Source: a virus. Taken from it: a DNA stretch of 39,662 nt. This document shows positions 11,067 through 28,132 of the stretch, piece after piece. The number at the start of each line of letters is the position of its first letter. Position 1 is the stretch's first letter. Both the position numbers and the translations under genes were made by a program. Location: positions 1 through 39,662 of IMG/VR virus record IMGVR_UViG_3300025525_000034. One strand, 5' to 3'. The notes below the pieces were generated by a model. The model did not search any database, was not told where the DNA came from, and worked only from the letters and a program-made list of their open reading frames with translations.

Positions 11067-11512
11067 CCGAAGCCCGCAAAATCTACCGCGCATGCTGCAA
11101 AGCCCTGGGCCTGGACGACGACACCCGCCGCGCCATGAACGTCAAAATCACCGGCAAGGCCAGCAGCGCCGATTTCACCGCTGACGACTGGCGCCGGATG
11201 ATTGCCCACGTCACCCGCGCCACCAACGCCCCGGCGCGCCAGCCCAACGAATGGGCCTGGGTCGACAGCGCCTCCGAAGACCGGCAACCCATGCTGCGCA
11301 AGCTGATCATGCTCGCCAAGGCCGCCGGCATCGCCCGTGGCAAACAGATCGCCTACATCGAAGGCATCGCCAAACAGGCCGCCGGGATCAAGGGCGGCAG
11401 CGTCGCCAAACCCTTGCGCCTGTGCGACAGCGCCGAACTGCGCGTGCTGGTGCAAGCGCTCAGCGTCTACAACGCCCGGCGCAGAAAGGCCAGCCAAGAG
11501 GCAACCCAATGA
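11063..11512 (+). CDS. gemA: GemA / gp16 family regulatory protein
   Basis: This 149-residue protein matches the Mu gp16 (GemA) family. It begins ARKIYRACCKALGLDDDTRR with the typical NVKITGKASSADFTADDWRR, then MLRKLIMLAKAAGIARGKQI and LRLCDSAELRVLVQALSVYN. In Mu, GemA affects host gene expression and DNA supercoiling. It precedes the Mor-type activator here, as in Mu. The overlap with the next gene (ATGA type) implies coupled translation. Confidence 0.88.
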   Translation: MTEARKIYRACCKALGLDDDTRRAMNVKITGKASSADFTADDWRRMIAHVTRATNAPARQPNEWAWVDSASEDRQPMLRKLIMLAKAAGIARGKQIAYIEGIAKQAAGIKGGSVAKPLRLCDSAELRVLVQALSVYNARRRKASQEATQ

Positions 11513-11928
11513 AACTCAACCTCGACCGCCTGCCTGCCTCGATGCGGCTGATCGTCGAGCTGATCGGCCTGCCCGCCGTGCTGCGCCTGGTCGAAGAATA
11601 CGGCGGTACCACCATCTGGCCGGCGAATACCGGCGCCAGCGGCGCGCACCTGGCCGACGTGCTGGGCGAAGCCGCCGCCGCCGCGCTGTGCGCGCACTTC
11701 CGCGAACCCATCTACATTCCGCTGTGCCGCGCCGCGCTGATCGCCGTCGAGCACGACGCCATCCGCACTGAAGGCGACGAGCTCGAACGCAATGGCCTCA
11801 GCGCCCGCGAAGCCGTCGCCCAACTGGCGCGCAAATACCGGCACAGCGACCGCTACATCTGGACCATACGCAAACGCGCCAACCACGGCGGCGAGGTCGC
11901 CGAAACCAAGCAGGGCAGTTTGTTTTGA
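11509..11928 (+). CDS. mor: Mor/C-family transcription activator
   Basis: This 139-residue protein matches Mor/C: an N-terminal dimerisation part (ASMRLIVELIGLPAVLRLVE, EYGGTTIWPA) and a C-terminal HTH (GLSAREAVAQLARKYRHSDR, YIWTIRKR). Mor and C bind dyad sites just upstream of weak promoters and recruit RNA polymerase for middle and late transcription. Only one family member is seen in this window, so it may do both jobs. Its likely targets are the dyad-bearing elements at 13391, 22436 and 27670. Mu Mor has 129 residues. Confidence 0.88.
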   Translation: MKLNLDRLPASMRLIVELIGLPAVLRLVEEYGGTTIWPANTGASGAHLADVLGEAAAAALCAHFREPIYIPLCRAALIAVEHDAIRTEGDELERNGLSAREAVAQLARKYRHSDRYIWTIRKRANHGGEVAETKQGSLF

Positions 11929-13283: not shown

Positions 13284-13339
13284 GCCGCTGCAACAGCGGC
13301 TTTCCGCCCCGGCCCGCCCTGCGCGTCGGGGCTTTTTTT
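13284..13339 (+). terminator. Double-hairpin rho-independent terminator of the early/middle region
   Basis: GCCGCTG-CAA-CAGCGGC (13284-13300) is followed by GCCCCG (13306-13311) pairing with CGGGGC (13327-13332) and then seven T (13333-13339). This is a strong intrinsic terminator that separates the early/middle operon from the lysis and late genes. Confidence 0.8.
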
Positions 13340-13392
13340 CACCCTTCACCCTTCACCCTTCACCCTTCACCCTTCACCCTTCACCCTTCACC
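13338..13392 (+). repeat. TTCACCC heptamer tandem repeat
   Basis: Seven perfect copies of TTCACCC (13338-13386) and a partial eighth (TTCACC, 13387-13392) run from the U-tract of the terminator to the start of the 55-nt element ahead of the amidase gene. The array is in noncoding DNA. Its copy number should be prone to slippage and would change the distance between terminator and late promoter element. Confidence 0.9.
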
Positions 13393-13445
13393 GCTGACCC
13401 CCATCAGCATCCCCGCATCGCGCGCGCGTGGCGAAACTGGCCGCC
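13391..13445 (+). promoter_or_regulatory. 55-nt late-operon head element, copy 1 (lysis module)
   Basis: It starts CCGCTGACCCCCATCAG, with dyad GCTGA..TCAGC. A C-rich part and GCATCGCGCGCGCG follow, and it ends GAAACTGGCCGCC directly at ATG 13446. No Shine-Dalgarno sequence is visible. The same start motif stands exactly 55 bases before the ATG at 22491 and 27725. Copy 1 is the most diverged of the three and lacks the large hairpin upstream. It corresponds in place to the Mu lysis promoter. Confidence 0.6.
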
Positions 13446-14036
13446 ATGTCTACGCCAGCCAACCCCCTCGCCCCAGCCCGAAATATCCGGCTGATCGTCA
13501 TCCACTGCGCGGCCACGCCCAACGGCCGCACGCTGTTCAGCGGCAAACCCGGCACGCCCGGCTGGCGCGATCCGGCCATCGAAATCGACCTGTGGCACAA
13601 ACAGGCGGGCTTCCAGCGCGATACCTACTGGCGCGGCCGGCAGAACGGCCGGCTGGCGCACATCGGCTACCACTACGTCATTGCCCGCAATGCCGCCGTG
13701 TTCACCGGCCGACATGACGACGAGCCCGGCGCCCACGCCGCCGGCTGGAACGCCGCATCGCTCGGCGTCTGCCTGGTCGGCATGGACCAATACACCCGGC
13801 TGCAATGGGCGCAACTGGCGCAAACCGTCGGCGGCCTGGCGCGCCGGCTGAACATCCCGCTCGCCCCGCCCGTGCTCGCCGTGCGCGACGGCAAGCGCTA
13901 CATCACCACCCCCGGCATCTGCGGCCACCGCGAACTACCCGGCGTCGCCAAAACCTGCCCCGGCTTCTCGGTCAAGGACTGGCTGACCGGCGGCCTGCAA
14001 GCGCTCGCCGGTCATGTGGTGGATGACCCCGCATGA
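13446..14036 (+). CDS. Phage endolysin, N-acetylmuramoyl-L-alanine amidase
   Basis: This 196-residue Amidase_2/T7-lysozyme-type enzyme cuts the amide bond between muramic acid and the peptide stem for host lysis. Probable zinc ligands are H20 (LIVIHCAA), H161 (GICGHRELPG) and C171 (KTCPGF). GYHYVIARNAAVFTGR and GWNAASLGVCLVGMDQY are typical of the family. There is no signal peptide, so export depends on the holin-like protein coded next. The start at 13446 is set by the conserved GCCGCCATG of the upstream element; 13428 in frame is less likely. Confidence 0.92.
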   Translation: MSTPANPLAPARNIRLIVIHCAATPNGRTLFSGKPGTPGWRDPAIEIDLWHKQAGFQRDTYWRGRQNGRLAHIGYHYVIARNAAVFTGRHDDEPGAHAAGWNAASLGVCLVGMDQYTRLQWAQLAQTVGGLARRLNIPLAPPVLAVRDGKRYITTPGICGHRELPGVAKTCPGFSVKDWLTGGLQALAGHVVDDPA

Positions 14037-18759: not shown

Positions 18760-20250
18760 ATGACCGAGAGCAAACCCGGCAAACCCAATACCGACGAAGT
18801 CGCCAGCACCCTGGACGGGCGCGACATCACGCGCGGCTGGCTGTACCCGTTGACCTTGCAGCCGCCCGACGACAGCGTGTTGATGGCGCGCGGCATGGGC
18901 GATTACACGCTCTATCGCGAAGTGCTGCGCGACGACCACGTCAAGGCGGCACTACAGCAGCGCGTCAACGCGGTCACCTCGCGGCCGTGGGAAGTGCGCC
19001 CCGGCGGCGACAAGCGCCTCGACAAGCAAGCCGCCGAATACCTGAAACAGCAGCTTGAAGCGCTGCGCTGGGACGCCATCACCGAAAAGATGCTGGCCGG
19101 CGTGTTCTACGGCTACGCGGTGGCGGAAGTGCTCTGGCAGGTGGAGGGCGCCCGCATCGGCATTGCCGACATCAAAGTGCGCGATCGCCGTCGCTTCGCC
19201 TTCGATGGCGCTGATCGGCTGCGCCTTAAAACCCGCGCCGCGCCGCAAGGCGAGCTGCTGCCGGAACGCAAGTTCTGGCACTTCGCCACCGGCGCCGACC
19301 ATGACGACGCGCCCTATGGCTTAGGGTTGGCGCACTGGCTGTATTGGCCGGTGTGGCTGAAGCGCAACGGCGTGAAGTTCTGGGCCAACTTCCTGGAAAA
19401 GTTCGCCAGCCCCACGGCCATGGGCACCTTCCCGCCCGGCACTTCGCCAACCGATCAGGCCAACCTGCTGGCCGCGCTCAGCGCCATCCAGACCGACAGC
19501 GCCATCATCTTCCCGGACGGCATGAACGCCAGCCTGTTGGAGGCCACGCGCGGCGGCACGGCGGATTACGCCGCGTTTTCGGCGGCGATGAATGCCGCCA
19601 TTCTGGTCATCACCATCGGCCAGACCGCCAGCACCCAAGGCACGCCCGGCAAGCTGGGCAATGACGAGAATCAAAGCGAGGTGCGCGCCGACATCAGCAA
19701 GGCCGATGCCGACCTGGTGTGCATGAGCTTCAACGCCACAGTGGCGCGCTGGCTGACCGAGTGGAATTTCCCCGGCGCCGCGTTGCCGCAGGTCTGGCGC
19801 ATCATGGACGAAGAAGAAGACCTCAACACCCGCGCGGAACGCGACGTGAAGCTGTCCGGCATCGGCTACAAGCCCAGCCTAAAGTACATCCAGGACACCT
19901 ATGGCGGCGAGTGGGAGGCGGCGGCGCCTAGGGCAGCGCCAGACCTGACAGGTTTGACAAACCTGTCAGGTCTGCAATCCGCAGCGCCGCCGGCCGAATT
20001 CGCCGACCCTGCCCCCGAACCGGACACCCCAGAAACTTTGGCCGCCCGCCTGGCCGCCGACACCGCCAACGCCATGGCCGACCTGATTGCCGACATCGGC
20101 AAAAGGGTTGCCGCCGCCGAGACGATCGAAGGCCTGCAACGCGACCTGGTCAACGCCTATGGCCACCTGGATACCGAAGAATTGACGCGGATCATGGCGC
20201 TGGGGTTTGCGGCGGCCGAACTGGCCGGCATGGCGGAGGCGGCGGAATGA
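18760..20250 (+). CDS. Portal protein (Mu gp29-like, DUF935)
   Basis: This 496-residue portal ring protein has family features in DITRGWLYPLTLQPPDDSVL, LYREVLRDDHVKAALQQRVN, VTSRPWEVRPGG and FWANFLEKFASPTAMGTFPP. The C-terminal part contains an unusual segment, DLTGLTNLSGLQ, coded by a 16-bp perfect palindrome (19940-19974). The segment looks like a dispersed repeat captured in frame. Acidic, Ala-rich helices close the protein. Confidence 0.93.
   Translation: MTESKPGKPNTDEVASTLDGRDITRGWLYPLTLQPPDDSVLMARGMGDYTLYREVLRDDHVKAALQQRVNAVTSRPWEVRPGGDKRLDKQAAEYLKQQLEALRWDAITEKMLAGVFYGYAVAEVLWQVEGARIGIADIKVRDRRRFAFDGADRLRLKTRAAPQGELLPERKFWHFATGADHDDAPYGLGLAHWLYWPVWLKRNGVKFWANFLEKFASPTAMGTFPPGTSPTDQANLLAALSAIQTDSAIIFPDGMNASLLEATRGGTADYAAFSAAMNAAILVITIGQTASTQGTPGKLGNDENQSEVRADISKADADLVCMSFNATVARWLTEWNFPGAALPQVWRIMDEEEDLNTRAERDVKLSGIGYKPSLKYIQDTYGGEWEAAAPRAAPDLTGLTNLSGLQSAAPPAEFADPAPEPDTPETLAARLAADTANAMADLIADIGKRVAAAETIEGLQRDLVNAYGHLDTEELTRIMALGFAAAELAGMAEAAE
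19940..19974. repeat. Palindromic element inside the portal gene
   Basis: AGACCTGACAGGTTT (19941-19955) and AAACCTGTCAGGTCT (19959-19973) form a perfect stem around GAC, with one more C-G pair outside. It lies in frame in the portal gene and shares its GACAGGTT..ACCTGTC core with a second palindrome at 25367-25397. It looks like a small dispersed palindrome, not portal sequence. Confidence 0.85.
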
Positions 20251-20266: not shown

Positions 20267-20337
20267 TCGTCATTCCCGCGAATGCGGGAATCCAGGATGC
20301 GACCCGAGCTGGATTCCCGCCTGCGCGGGAATGACGA
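20267..20337. repeat. dRS3/NEMIS-like nested palindromic repeat
   Basis: The outer arms TCGTCATTCCCGCG (20267-20280) and CGCGGGAATGACGA (20324-20337) are exact complements. The inner arms GCGGGAATCCAG (20284-20295) and CTGGATTCCCGC (20309-20320) are too. Each half contains ATTCCC-N8-GGGAAT or a near match, the signature of neisserial dRS3 and related repeats of beta- and gammaproteobacteria. It fills the gap between gp29 and gp30. Confidence 0.88.
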
Positions 20338-22325: not shown

Positions 22326-22435
22326 CCGCTGCACCAGTGCTCGGCACGCCGGTTCCCTAAGCGCTGAAGCGCAAAGGGAACCGCTGCACCAGTGCTCGGC
22401 ACGCCGGTTCCCTAAGCGCTGAAGCGCAAAGGGAA
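22326..22435 (+). repeat. Two identical 55-bp tandem repeats, each with a large hairpin
   Basis: Copies 22326-22380 and 22381-22435 are identical. Each contains GTGC-TCG-GCAC. Each also contains a long stem: CGGTTCCC pairs with GGGAACCG (its last bases shared with the next unit), inner stem GCGC-TGAA-GCGC. A diverged single relative stands at 27611-27669, ahead of the tail module. The array leads directly into the 55-nt head element at 22436. Confidence 0.85.
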
Positions 22436-22490
22436 CCGCTGAACCCCTTCAGACTGCCCCCCGTCATCCCGCTGCCAGAAACTGGCAGCC
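22436..22490 (+). promoter_or_regulatory. 55-nt late-operon head element, copy 2 (capsid module)
   Basis: It starts CCGCTGAACCCCTTCAG, with dyad CTGAA-CCCC-TTCAG. ACTGCCCCCCGTC follows, then the perfect hairpin CTGCCAG-AAA-CTGGCAG, ending CC directly before ATG 22491. It has no Shine-Dalgarno sequence. The place corresponds to the Mu late promoter ahead of gene I. The dyad centre lies about 45 bases before the ATG, the distance at which Mor/C proteins sit from a transcription start. Confidence 0.6.
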
Positions 22491-23651
22491 ATGGCTACCA
22501 AAACTCTCCCCCGCATCCATTGCTTCAAGCCTGGCCGGCATACCGCCATGTCGGGCGCTGTGCTGAGCTTTTCCGAATCCGATCTGGCGGCCTCGGCCGC
22601 AGCCTATGACCCGGCGTTGTTCCGCGCGCCGATCGTCGTCGGCCATCCCACGCTGGATGCGCCGGCCTACGGCTGGATCGACAGCGCGGCATCCGAAGCG
22701 GATGGCCTGTACGTCAACGCGGCGGATGTCGATGCCGAGTTCGCCGACATGGTCCGCGAGCAGCGTTTCCCGAATCGCTCCGCCTCGTTCTTCTCGCCCG
22801 GCCATCCGCGCAATCCGGTACCGGGCGTTTACTACCTCAAGCATGTCGGCTTTCTCGGTGCCGTGCCGCCGGCTGTGCGTGGCCTGAAGCCGATCCAGTT
22901 CGCTGACGACGATGCCGAATGCATCACCATCGAATTCGCTGATGCGCCGGCCTGGCCGGTGGCGCGCCTGTTTCGCGGCCTGCGCGACTGGCTGATCGGC
23001 AATCACGATCTGGCCACCGCCGATTCGGTGTTGCCCGCCTACCAGATCGAAGAACTTGAAAACGCCGCGCGCCGGGTTGACGAAGTTGAAACCGCCGCGC
23101 CGGCTCCCGCTTTTGCCGCCCCCCTCACCCAAGGAGACTCCATGTCACCCGAAGAAAAGGCGCGTCTTGACGCGCTCGAAGCTGATAACGCCCGGCTCAA
23201 GGCCGAGGCCGAGGCCCTCAAAACCCAGACCGCCGAGTTTGCCGACCGCGAAGCGGCGCTGCGCGCCAAGGAAGAAGCCGCGCGCCAAGCCGAGATTGCC
23301 GACTTTGCCGATGGCCTGATCAAGGCCGGCCGTGTGCTGCCGCGCGACAAGGCGGGCCTGGTGGCTTACCTGGCTGGTGCGGATGACGCCGGCGCCATCG
23401 AATTCGCCGACGGCGGGACCACCGTGAAGAAGCCCGCCGACGAGTGGCTGCGCAGCTTCCTGATCGCGCTGCCGGTGCAGGTTGACTTCGCCGAACGCGG
23501 CGCCGGAGATTCCCGCGATGACGCCAACTTTGCCGCTGCTTCCGACCCCGTCGCCGTCGCCGCCAAAGCCGTCGAGTTCCAGGAAGCCGAAGCCCGCGCC
23601 GGCCGTACCGTCAACATCGCTCAGGCCGTGGCGCACGTCCGGGGCGTCTGA
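22491..23651 (+). CDS. I: Mu I-like head maturation protease, with scaffold as C-terminal part
   Basis: This 386-residue protein matches Mu-like prophage protease I: a catalytic N-terminal ~200 residues (FRAPIVVGHPTLDAPAYGWI, MVREQRFPNRSASFF, VYYLKHVGFLGAVPPAVRGL). A coiled-coil scaffold region starts near residue 218. The protease trims scaffold during capsid assembly. The gene begins exactly at the end of the 55-nt head element. An internal start for the scaffold alone is listed separately. Confidence 0.92.
   Translation: MATKTLPRIHCFKPGRHTAMSGAVLSFSESDLAASAAAYDPALFRAPIVVGHPTLDAPAYGWIDSAASEADGLYVNAADVDAEFADMVREQRFPNRSASFFSPGHPRNPVPGVYYLKHVGFLGAVPPAVRGLKPIQFADDDAECITIEFADAPAWPVARLFRGLRDWLIGNHDLATADSVLPAYQIEELENAARRVDEVETAAPAPAFAAPLTQGDSMSPEEKARLDALEADNARLKAEAEALKTQTAEFADREAALRAKEEAARQAEIADFADGLIKAGRVLPRDKAGLVAYLAGADDAGAIEFADGGTTVKKPADEWLRSFLIALPVQVDFAERGAGDSRDDANFAAASDPVAVAAKAVEFQEAEARAGRTVNIAQAVAHVRGV
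23142..23651 (+). CDS. Z: Internal in-frame scaffold protein (Mu Z-like)
   Basis: ATG 23142, within gene I and in the same frame, is preceded by a perfect AAGGAG six bases upstream, whereas the I start itself has none. Translation from it gives 169 residues: a coiled coil (ARLDALEADNARLKAEAEAL, REAALRAKEEAARQAEIADF) and a C-terminal capsid-binding part. Mu produces scaffold gpZ from an internal start in I in the same way. The number of scaffold copies would thus be set independently of the protease. Confidence 0.82.
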   Translation: MSPEEKARLDALEADNARLKAEAEALKTQTAEFADREAALRAKEEAARQAEIADFADGLIKAGRVLPRDKAGLVAYLAGADDAGAIEFADGGTTVKKPADEWLRSFLIALPVQVDFAERGAGDSRDDANFAAASDPVAVAAKAVEFQEAEARAGRTVNIAQAVAHVRGV

Positions 23652-25236: not shown

Positions 25237-25306
25237 AAACCCGCCCCCTGAAACCCGCCCCCTGAAACCCGCCCACTGAAACCTGCCCCCTGAACCTTGC
25301 CCGAGG
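25237..25306 (+). repeat. 14-bp tandem repeat AAACCCGCCCCCTG
   Basis: Units at 25237-25250 and 25251-25264 are identical. Units 25265-25278 and 25279-25292 have one change each, and 25293-25306 is a decayed fifth unit. The array spans the gap between the capsid gene and the next gene. CAGGGGGC just upstream (25216-25223) can pair with any unit. Confidence 0.85.
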
Positions 25307-25312
25307 AAACCC

Positions 25313-27614: not shown

Positions 27615-27669
27615 ACCCGTTCTCGGTGCGCCGGGTGACTAAGCCGCCAAAAGACGGCGGCCAAGTCAC
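27611..27669 (+). promoter_or_regulatory. Hairpin domain related to the 22326/22381 repeats
   Basis: It shares CTGCACC.GT.CTCGG..CGCCGG and the TAAG loop start with the units at 22326 and 22381. The main stem is CGGGTGAC/GTCACCCG (the last bases run into the head element). The inner stem is GCCGCC/GGCGGC. At 22381 the corresponding stems are CGGTTCCC/GGGAACCG and GCGC/GCGC. Five pairs of the 8-bp stem have changed on both sides with pairing kept, which points to a conserved RNA or cruciform structure. Confidence 0.65.
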
Positions 27670-27724
27670 CCGCTGAACCGCTTCAGTCTGCCCCCCATCG
27701 CGCGCGCGCGGCACCATCGCCGCC
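27670..27724 (+). promoter_or_regulatory. 55-nt late-operon head element, copy 3 (tail module)
   Basis: It starts CCGCTGAACCGCTTCAG, with dyad CTGAA-CCGC-TTCAG. TCTGCCCCCCATC and an alternating GC run follow, and it ends ACCATCGCCGCC directly before ATG 27725. It has no Shine-Dalgarno sequence. It matches copy 2 in 28 of the first 30 positions or so and copy 1 in outline, with the same 55-base distance to the ATG. Confidence 0.6.
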
Positions 27725-28132
27725 ATGCTGCTCACGCCTATCGTCACTCGCCTTACCGCGCAATGCCCGTCGCTGACCCAGGTGCTTTATGCCCTGTCCG
27801 GCGCGGTGCCGGCCACTTACCCGGCGGCCTACGTGCTGCCGCTGTCCGATAGCGCCGCCGCCAACGTCTTGCTCGGCGCGCACAGCCAGATCATCACCAG
27901 CCGCTTCGCCATCGAGATCATGCTCAAGCACGCCGGCCAGGCGGCGAGCGGCGGCCCGGCCGCCGAGGCGCTGGAAGCGGTGCGTACCGAGGTTCTGGCC
28001 GCGCTGAAGGGCTGGCAACCCACCCCGGAGCACGACCCCATCGCCTATGTCGGCGGCCGCCTGATTGATTTCCAGGCCGGCATGGCGACCTGGCGCGAAG
28101 AGTTTTCCACCCGCCACGACAGCCGAACCTAG
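27725..28132 (+). CDS. gp37-like tail terminator protein (DUF1834 type)
   Basis: This 135-residue protein (VTRLTAQCPSLTQVLYALSG, AAYVLPLSDSAAANVLLGAH, ITSRFAIEIMLKHAG, PIAYVGGRLIDFQAGMATWR) matches the Mu-like gp37 family in length, order and pattern. Such proteins cap the tail tube at the head-proximal end. It is the first gene of the tail module and starts at the end of the third head element. Confidence 0.82.
   Translation: MLLTPIVTRLTAQCPSLTQVLYALSGAVPATYPAAYVLPLSDSAAANVLLGAHSQIITSRFAIEIMLKHAGQAASGGPAAEALEAVRTEVLAALKGWQPTPEHDPIAYVGGRLIDFQAGMATWREEFSTRHDSRT

Follow-up and report, generated by a model that had tools for sequence, protein, structure and literature searches.

Predicted Mor/C-dependent late promoters adjoining the start codons of module-heading genes in a transposable siphophage

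Three 55-nt elements that stand at the heads of the late modules of a transposable siphophage are interpreted here, with high confidence, as promoters, and more specifically they are probably Mor/C-dependent late promoters whose transcription starts on the ATG of the first gene or one base before it, giving leaderless messages free of a Shine–Dalgarno (SD) sequence. The window, that is, the whole analyzed stretch of 39,662 nt, is an IMG/VR virus contig with a terminase related to that of D3112, and encodes a Mu-type transposase, GemA, a Mor/C protein, an amidase, a protease, a tail terminator and a tape measure protein.

The elements occupy positions 13391–13445, 22436–22490 and 27670–27724, each ending one base ahead of an ATG, as the earlier note had described. 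The downstream genes, all on the plus strand, all lacking an SD and all predicted to be leaderless, are those for the amidase (13446–14036; Amidase_2, E = 2e-15), which opens the lysis/packaging module, the head maturation protease (22491–23651; phrog_976, E = 1e-108), which opens the capsid module, and the tail terminator (27725–28132; PF23840, E = 1e-27), which opens the tail module. The identities previously assigned to these genes, and to the Mor/C-type activator gene at 11509–11928, hold. The copies precede the lysis, head (protease) and tail transcription units, as expected of Mu-type late promoters.

Near its 5′ end each element has an inverted repeat, hereinafter dyad 1, on the plus strand: GCTGA-CCCCCA-TCAGC before the amidase gene (site 1, 13393–13408), a predicted Mor/C site, CTGAA-CCCC-TTCAG before the protease gene (site 2, 22439–22452), and CTGAA-CCGC-TTCAG before the tail terminator gene (site 3, 27673–27686). 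The center of dyad 1 lies 45.5 nt before the ATG at all three sites, and exact matches to the pattern CCGCTGAMCCSYWTCAG in the record are these three sites and no more. The heptamer CCGCTGA occurs ten times on the plus strand, and for three of the ten the distance to the ATG of an open reading frame (ORF) of at least 100 aa is exactly 55 nt (P ~2e-5). Pairwise, the elements share 36, 28 and 37 of 55 bases, compared to a mean of 15.6 and a maximum of 25 when the window's other gene starts are paired (406 pairs). The 55-nt tandem duplication adjoining site 2 could suggest recent duplication of one intergenic segment as the origin of the likeness, but the spacing alone, with the above probability, and the recurrence of the layout in distant phages with other sequences contradict both this explanation and chance, so that we give them practically no credence. 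The description of the elements as a single 55-nt repeat stands for columns 1–26 (dyad 1 plus the C-run) and 44–55, while columns 27–43 are variable. The spacer, formerly characterized by its GC-richness alone, is not featureless, as it holds a –10 hexamer NANNNT and a covarying hairpin, both missed at that time.

The absence of an SD at the three genes is confirmed by the energies of the anti-SD duplex, –1.9, –1.5 and –1.7 kcal/mol, with values of about –4 to –9.5 kcal/mol for most other genes of the window (exceptions are gemA, 7130 and terS).

The window's own dyad, used as an exact pattern, has no match in the viral contigs; the layout had to be found via homologues of the protease. Upstream of homologues with 41–50% identity the dyad is a different one, (G)CGGAA-N4-TTCCG(C)CTTA, with the spacing to the ATG unchanged, and in one relative, G002, copies of the element are found at the amidase gene (contig L018, 9250), the protease gene (L019, 2897) and a tail gene (L019, 11343). 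Scanning of viral contigs for this sister dyad, CGGAA-N4-TTCCGCCTTA, blind to the ATG, yielded 97 usable sites, with an ATG 43–46 nt from the center in 58 of them. Among starts of ORFs of at least 60 aa at +43 to +46 from the center we observe 50 ATG, no GTG and no TTG, which fits the AUG use of leaderless mRNAs, while all other 101 positions together have 69 ATG, 47 GTG and 32 TTG; the loci of two later scans, whose patterns included the ATG or the small dyad, are left out of this spacing test. In a separate sample the dyad is present in two of 398 genomes, one of them being the genome at the center of the sample, and four of the five copies are fused to an ATG; one genome of this sample has three copies about 8.5 kb apart. 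In most relatives the distance from the dyad center to the ATG is 44.5–45.5 nt. The element is missing from D3112 and DMS3, the isolates closest in DNA sequence, whose late genes carry SDs. As to conservation in relatives, on which the earlier note had staked its proposal, the architecture and spacing persist and the exact dyad sequence differs. We also observe protease-sized ORFs in contigs L162, L217 and L247 that have the start element GCCACCATGGCGGCATG and another upstream dyad, CGTCCCAGGGACG, centered 50–51 nt before the ATG, which perhaps corresponds to another type of activator.

Alignment of 96 sites from the dyad center yields a regular grid: TTAAC at +10 to +14 (base frequencies 0.90/0.81/0.81/0.69/0.68), then 17 bp, then A at +34 (0.88) and T at +38 (0.88), six bases after which the A of the ATG follows in the main class of sites. 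The base at –1 before the ATG is C in 86% of this profile, which takes in some sites from the two scans with the ATG in the pattern, and fits a pyrimidine–purine initiation site. The order in relatives with the CGGAA dyad is dyad, TTAAC (–35), 17 bp, NANNNT (–10), 6–7 bp, ATG. The A and T of NANNNT are the two –10 bases most needed by sigma factors. When the three copies of the window are compared over columns 27–49, the only invariant positions are 44 and 48, and they are exactly this A and T. The predicted –10 hexamers, on the same grid as in relatives, are GAAACT (13433–13438), GAAACT (22478–22483) and CACCAT (27712–27717), all on the plus strand, about 7–8 bp before the ATG; they are weak, and the –35 regions (TCCCCG, TGCCCC and TGCCCC) are far from the consensus.

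With the A and T of the –10 hexamer so close to the ATG, transcription is predicted to begin at the first base of the ATG or at the base preceding it, and the message would then have no leader. As the window has one more base between the T at –7 and the ATG than the majority class does, the C preceding the ATG could be +1 here. If the spacing of Mu, with the dyad centered at –43.5, is applied to the window, the start falls 2 nt before the ATG, so that both estimates predict a leader of 0–2 nt. A start falling on the ATG would explain the exact distance between the dyad and the ATG. We have good confidence in a leaderless message for the opening gene of each late operon, as predicted from the –10 position. 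Leaderless mRNAs are known in bacteria, e.g., in mycobacteria (PMC4633059); the predicted AUG at the 5′ end and the absence of an SD are shared with them, while here the arrangement recurs wherever a late operon of the phage begins, under one presumed phage activator, and the start sites are predicted. In the literature searched, late mRNAs of Mu-like phages are nowhere described as leaderless, the classical papers on Mu promoters being outside its reach.

A second, small dyad lies just before the ATG at each site, on the plus strand: GUGGC/GCCGC (GTGGC/GCCGC in DNA) with one G–U pair at 13428–13444, GCTGCCAG-AAA-CTGGCAGC at 22471–22489 (z –3.3), and GCGGC-ACCATC-GCCGC at 27708–27723. The arms differ from site to site in the window, and compensating changes are observed (GGTTGGCA/TGCCAACC, GGTTGCCA/TGGCAACC, GGTCGCCA/TGGCGACC, TTGCCA/TGGCAA and GCGGCA/TGCCGC). 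As a control, halves were exchanged between sites of the same type, loci from patterns containing the ATG or the small dyad being left out: the mean stem is 5.33 in the first set of ATG-blind sites, compared to 3.11 in the swaps (maximum 3.92 of 200), and 4.0 in the second set, compared to 3.01 (maximum 3.62). Scans for a hairpin before an ATG give many chance matches, and the criterion used was the dyad position, NANNNT and the ATG together. A stem of at least five pairs is present in 45 of 68 ATG-fused promoters, compared to none of seven leadered ones. Since both arms lie upstream of +1, the hairpin would be absent from the promoter's own RNA and present in read-through RNA only. The –10 hexamer sits in the loop of the small dyad, and a role at the DNA level is also possible; comparison of G·T and A·C mismatches, addressing a DNA cruciform versus an RNA hairpin, reveals no clear difference.

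The tie between the hairpin and the ATG, with the 3′ arm abutting the latter, would also suit the same Mor/C-dependent promoters starting further upstream, with the small hairpin held in a short leader and the fixed spacing reflecting a translational constraint. We consider this unlikely, as a start 15–20 nt upstream needs a –10 element in the C-rich spacer, which is variable and has no conserved one, whereas A(+34) and T(+38) are conserved also in leadered promoters without a following ATG, and the C prevailing at –1 is what an initiation site would have. Retention of NANNNT in promoters that no ATG follows also indicates that the hexamer is a part of the promoter rather than a by-product of the start codon.

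Both dyads are able to fold, and the small one covaries, so one may ask whether they are simply RNA hairpins exerting translational or attenuation control with no promoter involved. This is quite improbable: within a phage the sequence of dyad 1 is constant while the small dyad varies, as expected of a protein site, the –35 and –10 elements are conserved with 17-bp spacing, dyad 1 varies together with the DNA-recognition helix of the activator (see below), and in Fc02, a B3-type phage, three late clusters (lysis plus packaging, virion structure, and a third one) are transcribed separately after induction (PMC9936078).

A related form of the hairpin, apparently following the same logic, is seen in AT-rich phage contigs (L034, L058, L078, L118, L137 and L151), where the late promoter is followed by CCTCAC-AATA-GTGAGG-TTTTTTT-ATG; the predicted start falls within the 5′ arm of this leadered, terminator-like hairpin, and an SD-like GUGAGG forms part of the 3′ arm.

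The presumed binder of dyad 1 is the Mor/C-type late transcriptional activator encoded at 11509–11928 on the plus strand (phrog_836, E = 3e-33; a single match to PF08765 over the cut-off), the one Mor/C homologue found in the record. Direct sequence search returned no solved Mor structure for this protein. The recognition helix of phages with the CGGAA dyad has T-x-R-x-[IV]-R or something very near it, the final position being Arg in 16 of 17, while phages with TGAA half-sites (the window, G004, G006, YPCBV-1 and the L155 type) have Trp or Tyr at this position and Arg in none of seven. Fisher's test gives P of about 2e-5 for this association, and 1e-4 when near-identical loci are collapsed into one; the correlation, counted by locus irrespective of shared ancestry, supports, without proving it, the reading of dyad 1 by Mor/C.

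Among known systems, the closest analogy is provided by Mu, where the dyad bound by Mor is centered at –43.5 and no –35 element is present, and a related dyad is the target of C in four late promoters, Plys, PI, PP and Pmom (PMC4287176; PMC4461284). Like these promoters and the Mor-dependent Pm, the elements have a presumed activator of the Mor/C family, a dyad near –43.5 by a poor –35 region and a –10 hexamer, and the copies stand before lysis, protease (I) and tail genes. By their sequence they are probably of the Mu-type Mor/C-dependent late promoter kind, all defining features that can be examined in this way being present except the dyad sequence: the dyad of the window is based on GAA-N4-TTC, and no such core dyad is seen in the Mu late regions. 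Further differences are the hairpin at the ATG and the one Mor/C protein found in the record, compared to two in Mu. Moreover, the lys and I regions of Mu have purine-rich SD-like stretches between a –10-like hexamer and the ATG, and Mu late mRNAs appear to be leadered, whereas in the window the ATG is at the predicted +1. Thus, the proposal that the constant spacing reflects one regulatory device similar to the C-dependent late promoters of Mu is supported by the comparative evidence, namely, the layout in relatives, the –35 and –10 elements with 17-bp spacing, and the helix varying with the dyad. Distinct from the Mu type, as judged from sequence, are the fusion to the start codon with a predicted leaderless message, the hairpin abutting the ATG, and the GAA-N4-TTC dyad.

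In B3, the holin, protease and tape measure genes each have a TTTTCG...CGAAAA dyad upstream, followed in all three cases by NANNNT at +31 to +36. B3/Fc02 (Beetrevirus) thus share with the window three dyads, NANNNT at a constant distance, and an ATG-fused protease start with a hairpin, here GCCGCC/GGCGGC, while the B3 dyad sequence is different, and only the protease copy is fused to the ATG, those of the holin and tape measure genes having leaders. B3ORF36 (L387, about 19857–19900) is annotated as starting with a CTG that lies upstream of the ATG in GGGCGGCATGAAAAAG; the latter ATG is at the predicted +1 of the late promoter and fits the protease alignment, and the annotated start is probably wrong. 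The dyad of Chromohalobacter phage YPCBV-1, CCGCTGAAGTCCTTC, is close to CCGCTGAACCCCTTC of the window, and a NANNNT hexamer, GATACT, is at the same distance, but in YPCBV-1 a leader of about 19 nt with the SD GGGAGG precedes the protease ATG, and there is no hairpin. Leadered promoters of the same kind are also found in contigs L091, L103 and L133. Hence, leaderlessness is not intrinsic to this kind of promoter.

The surroundings of the sites also contain hairpins. An intrinsic-terminator-like hairpin plus T7 lies upstream of site 1 (13316–13339), and strong hairpins, similar to each other, lie directly upstream of dyad 1 at site 2 (22405–22438, –23.5 kcal/mol, z –5.2) and site 3 (27632–27672, –29.7 kcal/mol, z –6.5), all on the plus strand; the latter two are possibly insulators or terminators without a T-run. 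Such neighbors could suggest that dyad 1 itself is the 3′ end of the terminator of the upstream module, or else a repressor operator. We consider this very improbable: the position of dyad 1 is fixed within 1–2 nt relative to the –35 and –10 elements and the ATG, while terminators need neither such spacing nor location at late-module heads, and in most relatives no T-run follows dyad 1.

Several repeats were observed in the window. Between the terminator-like hairpin and dyad 1 of site 1, the heptamer TTCACCC is repeated 7.9 times (13338–13392). Immediately upstream of site 2 there is a perfect tandem duplication (22326–22435) with a 55-nt unit containing the strong hairpin. A 14-bp tandem repeat, AAACCCGCCCCCTG, in about 4–5 copies, is located between the major head gene and the next ORF (25237–25312). 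A 29-bp inverted repeat (93%), TCGTCATTCCCGCG...CGCGGGAATGACGA, between the ORFs 18760 and 20344 (20267–20337) resembles a phage-borne copy of a bacterial interspersed repeat. Finally, two 54-nt stretches with 91% identity (2522–2575 and 2823–2876, the latter at the start of the transposase ORF, 2812) suggest a duplicated N-terminal segment of the MuA-type transposase.

The proposed mechanism builds on features read from the sequence, that is, the layout, the conservation and fixed spacing, the –35/–10 grid, the SD absence, the hairpin covariation and the dyad–helix correlation, from which we infer activator binding, the transcription start position, leaderless translation and the role of the hairpin. 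A dimer of the phage Mor/C protein would bind dyad 1 just upstream of the weak –35 region and help the host RNA polymerase to use the –10 hexamer NANNNT, which is so near the gene that the RNA would begin at the A of the ATG or at the preceding base. Each late operon would then begin with a leaderless, SD-free message for its first gene, while read-through RNA from the preceding module would form the small hairpin, hiding the ATG.

More tentatively, and with somewhat less than even confidence, we suggest that a widespread group of Mu-like phages has ATG-fused late promoters together with a hairpin that silences the gene in read-through RNA, so that the ATG would be readable only on the RNA of its own promoter, forming a timing lock on the lysis, capsid and tail genes. 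Should this be so, a broad range of transposable phages would depend for late expression on leaderless messages under one phage activator, and these phages would provide a clean system for studying both the competition of leaderless AUGs for ribosomes late in infection and structure-silenced read-through. The pairing of helix residues and half-sites (Arg with CGGAA, Trp or Tyr with TGAA) provides rules of specificity within the Mor/C family that are open to testing, and the motif comprising the dyad, TTAAC, 17 bp, NANNNT, 6–7 bp and ATG locates heads of late modules in unannotated phages and serves to correct start codons, as with B3ORF36.
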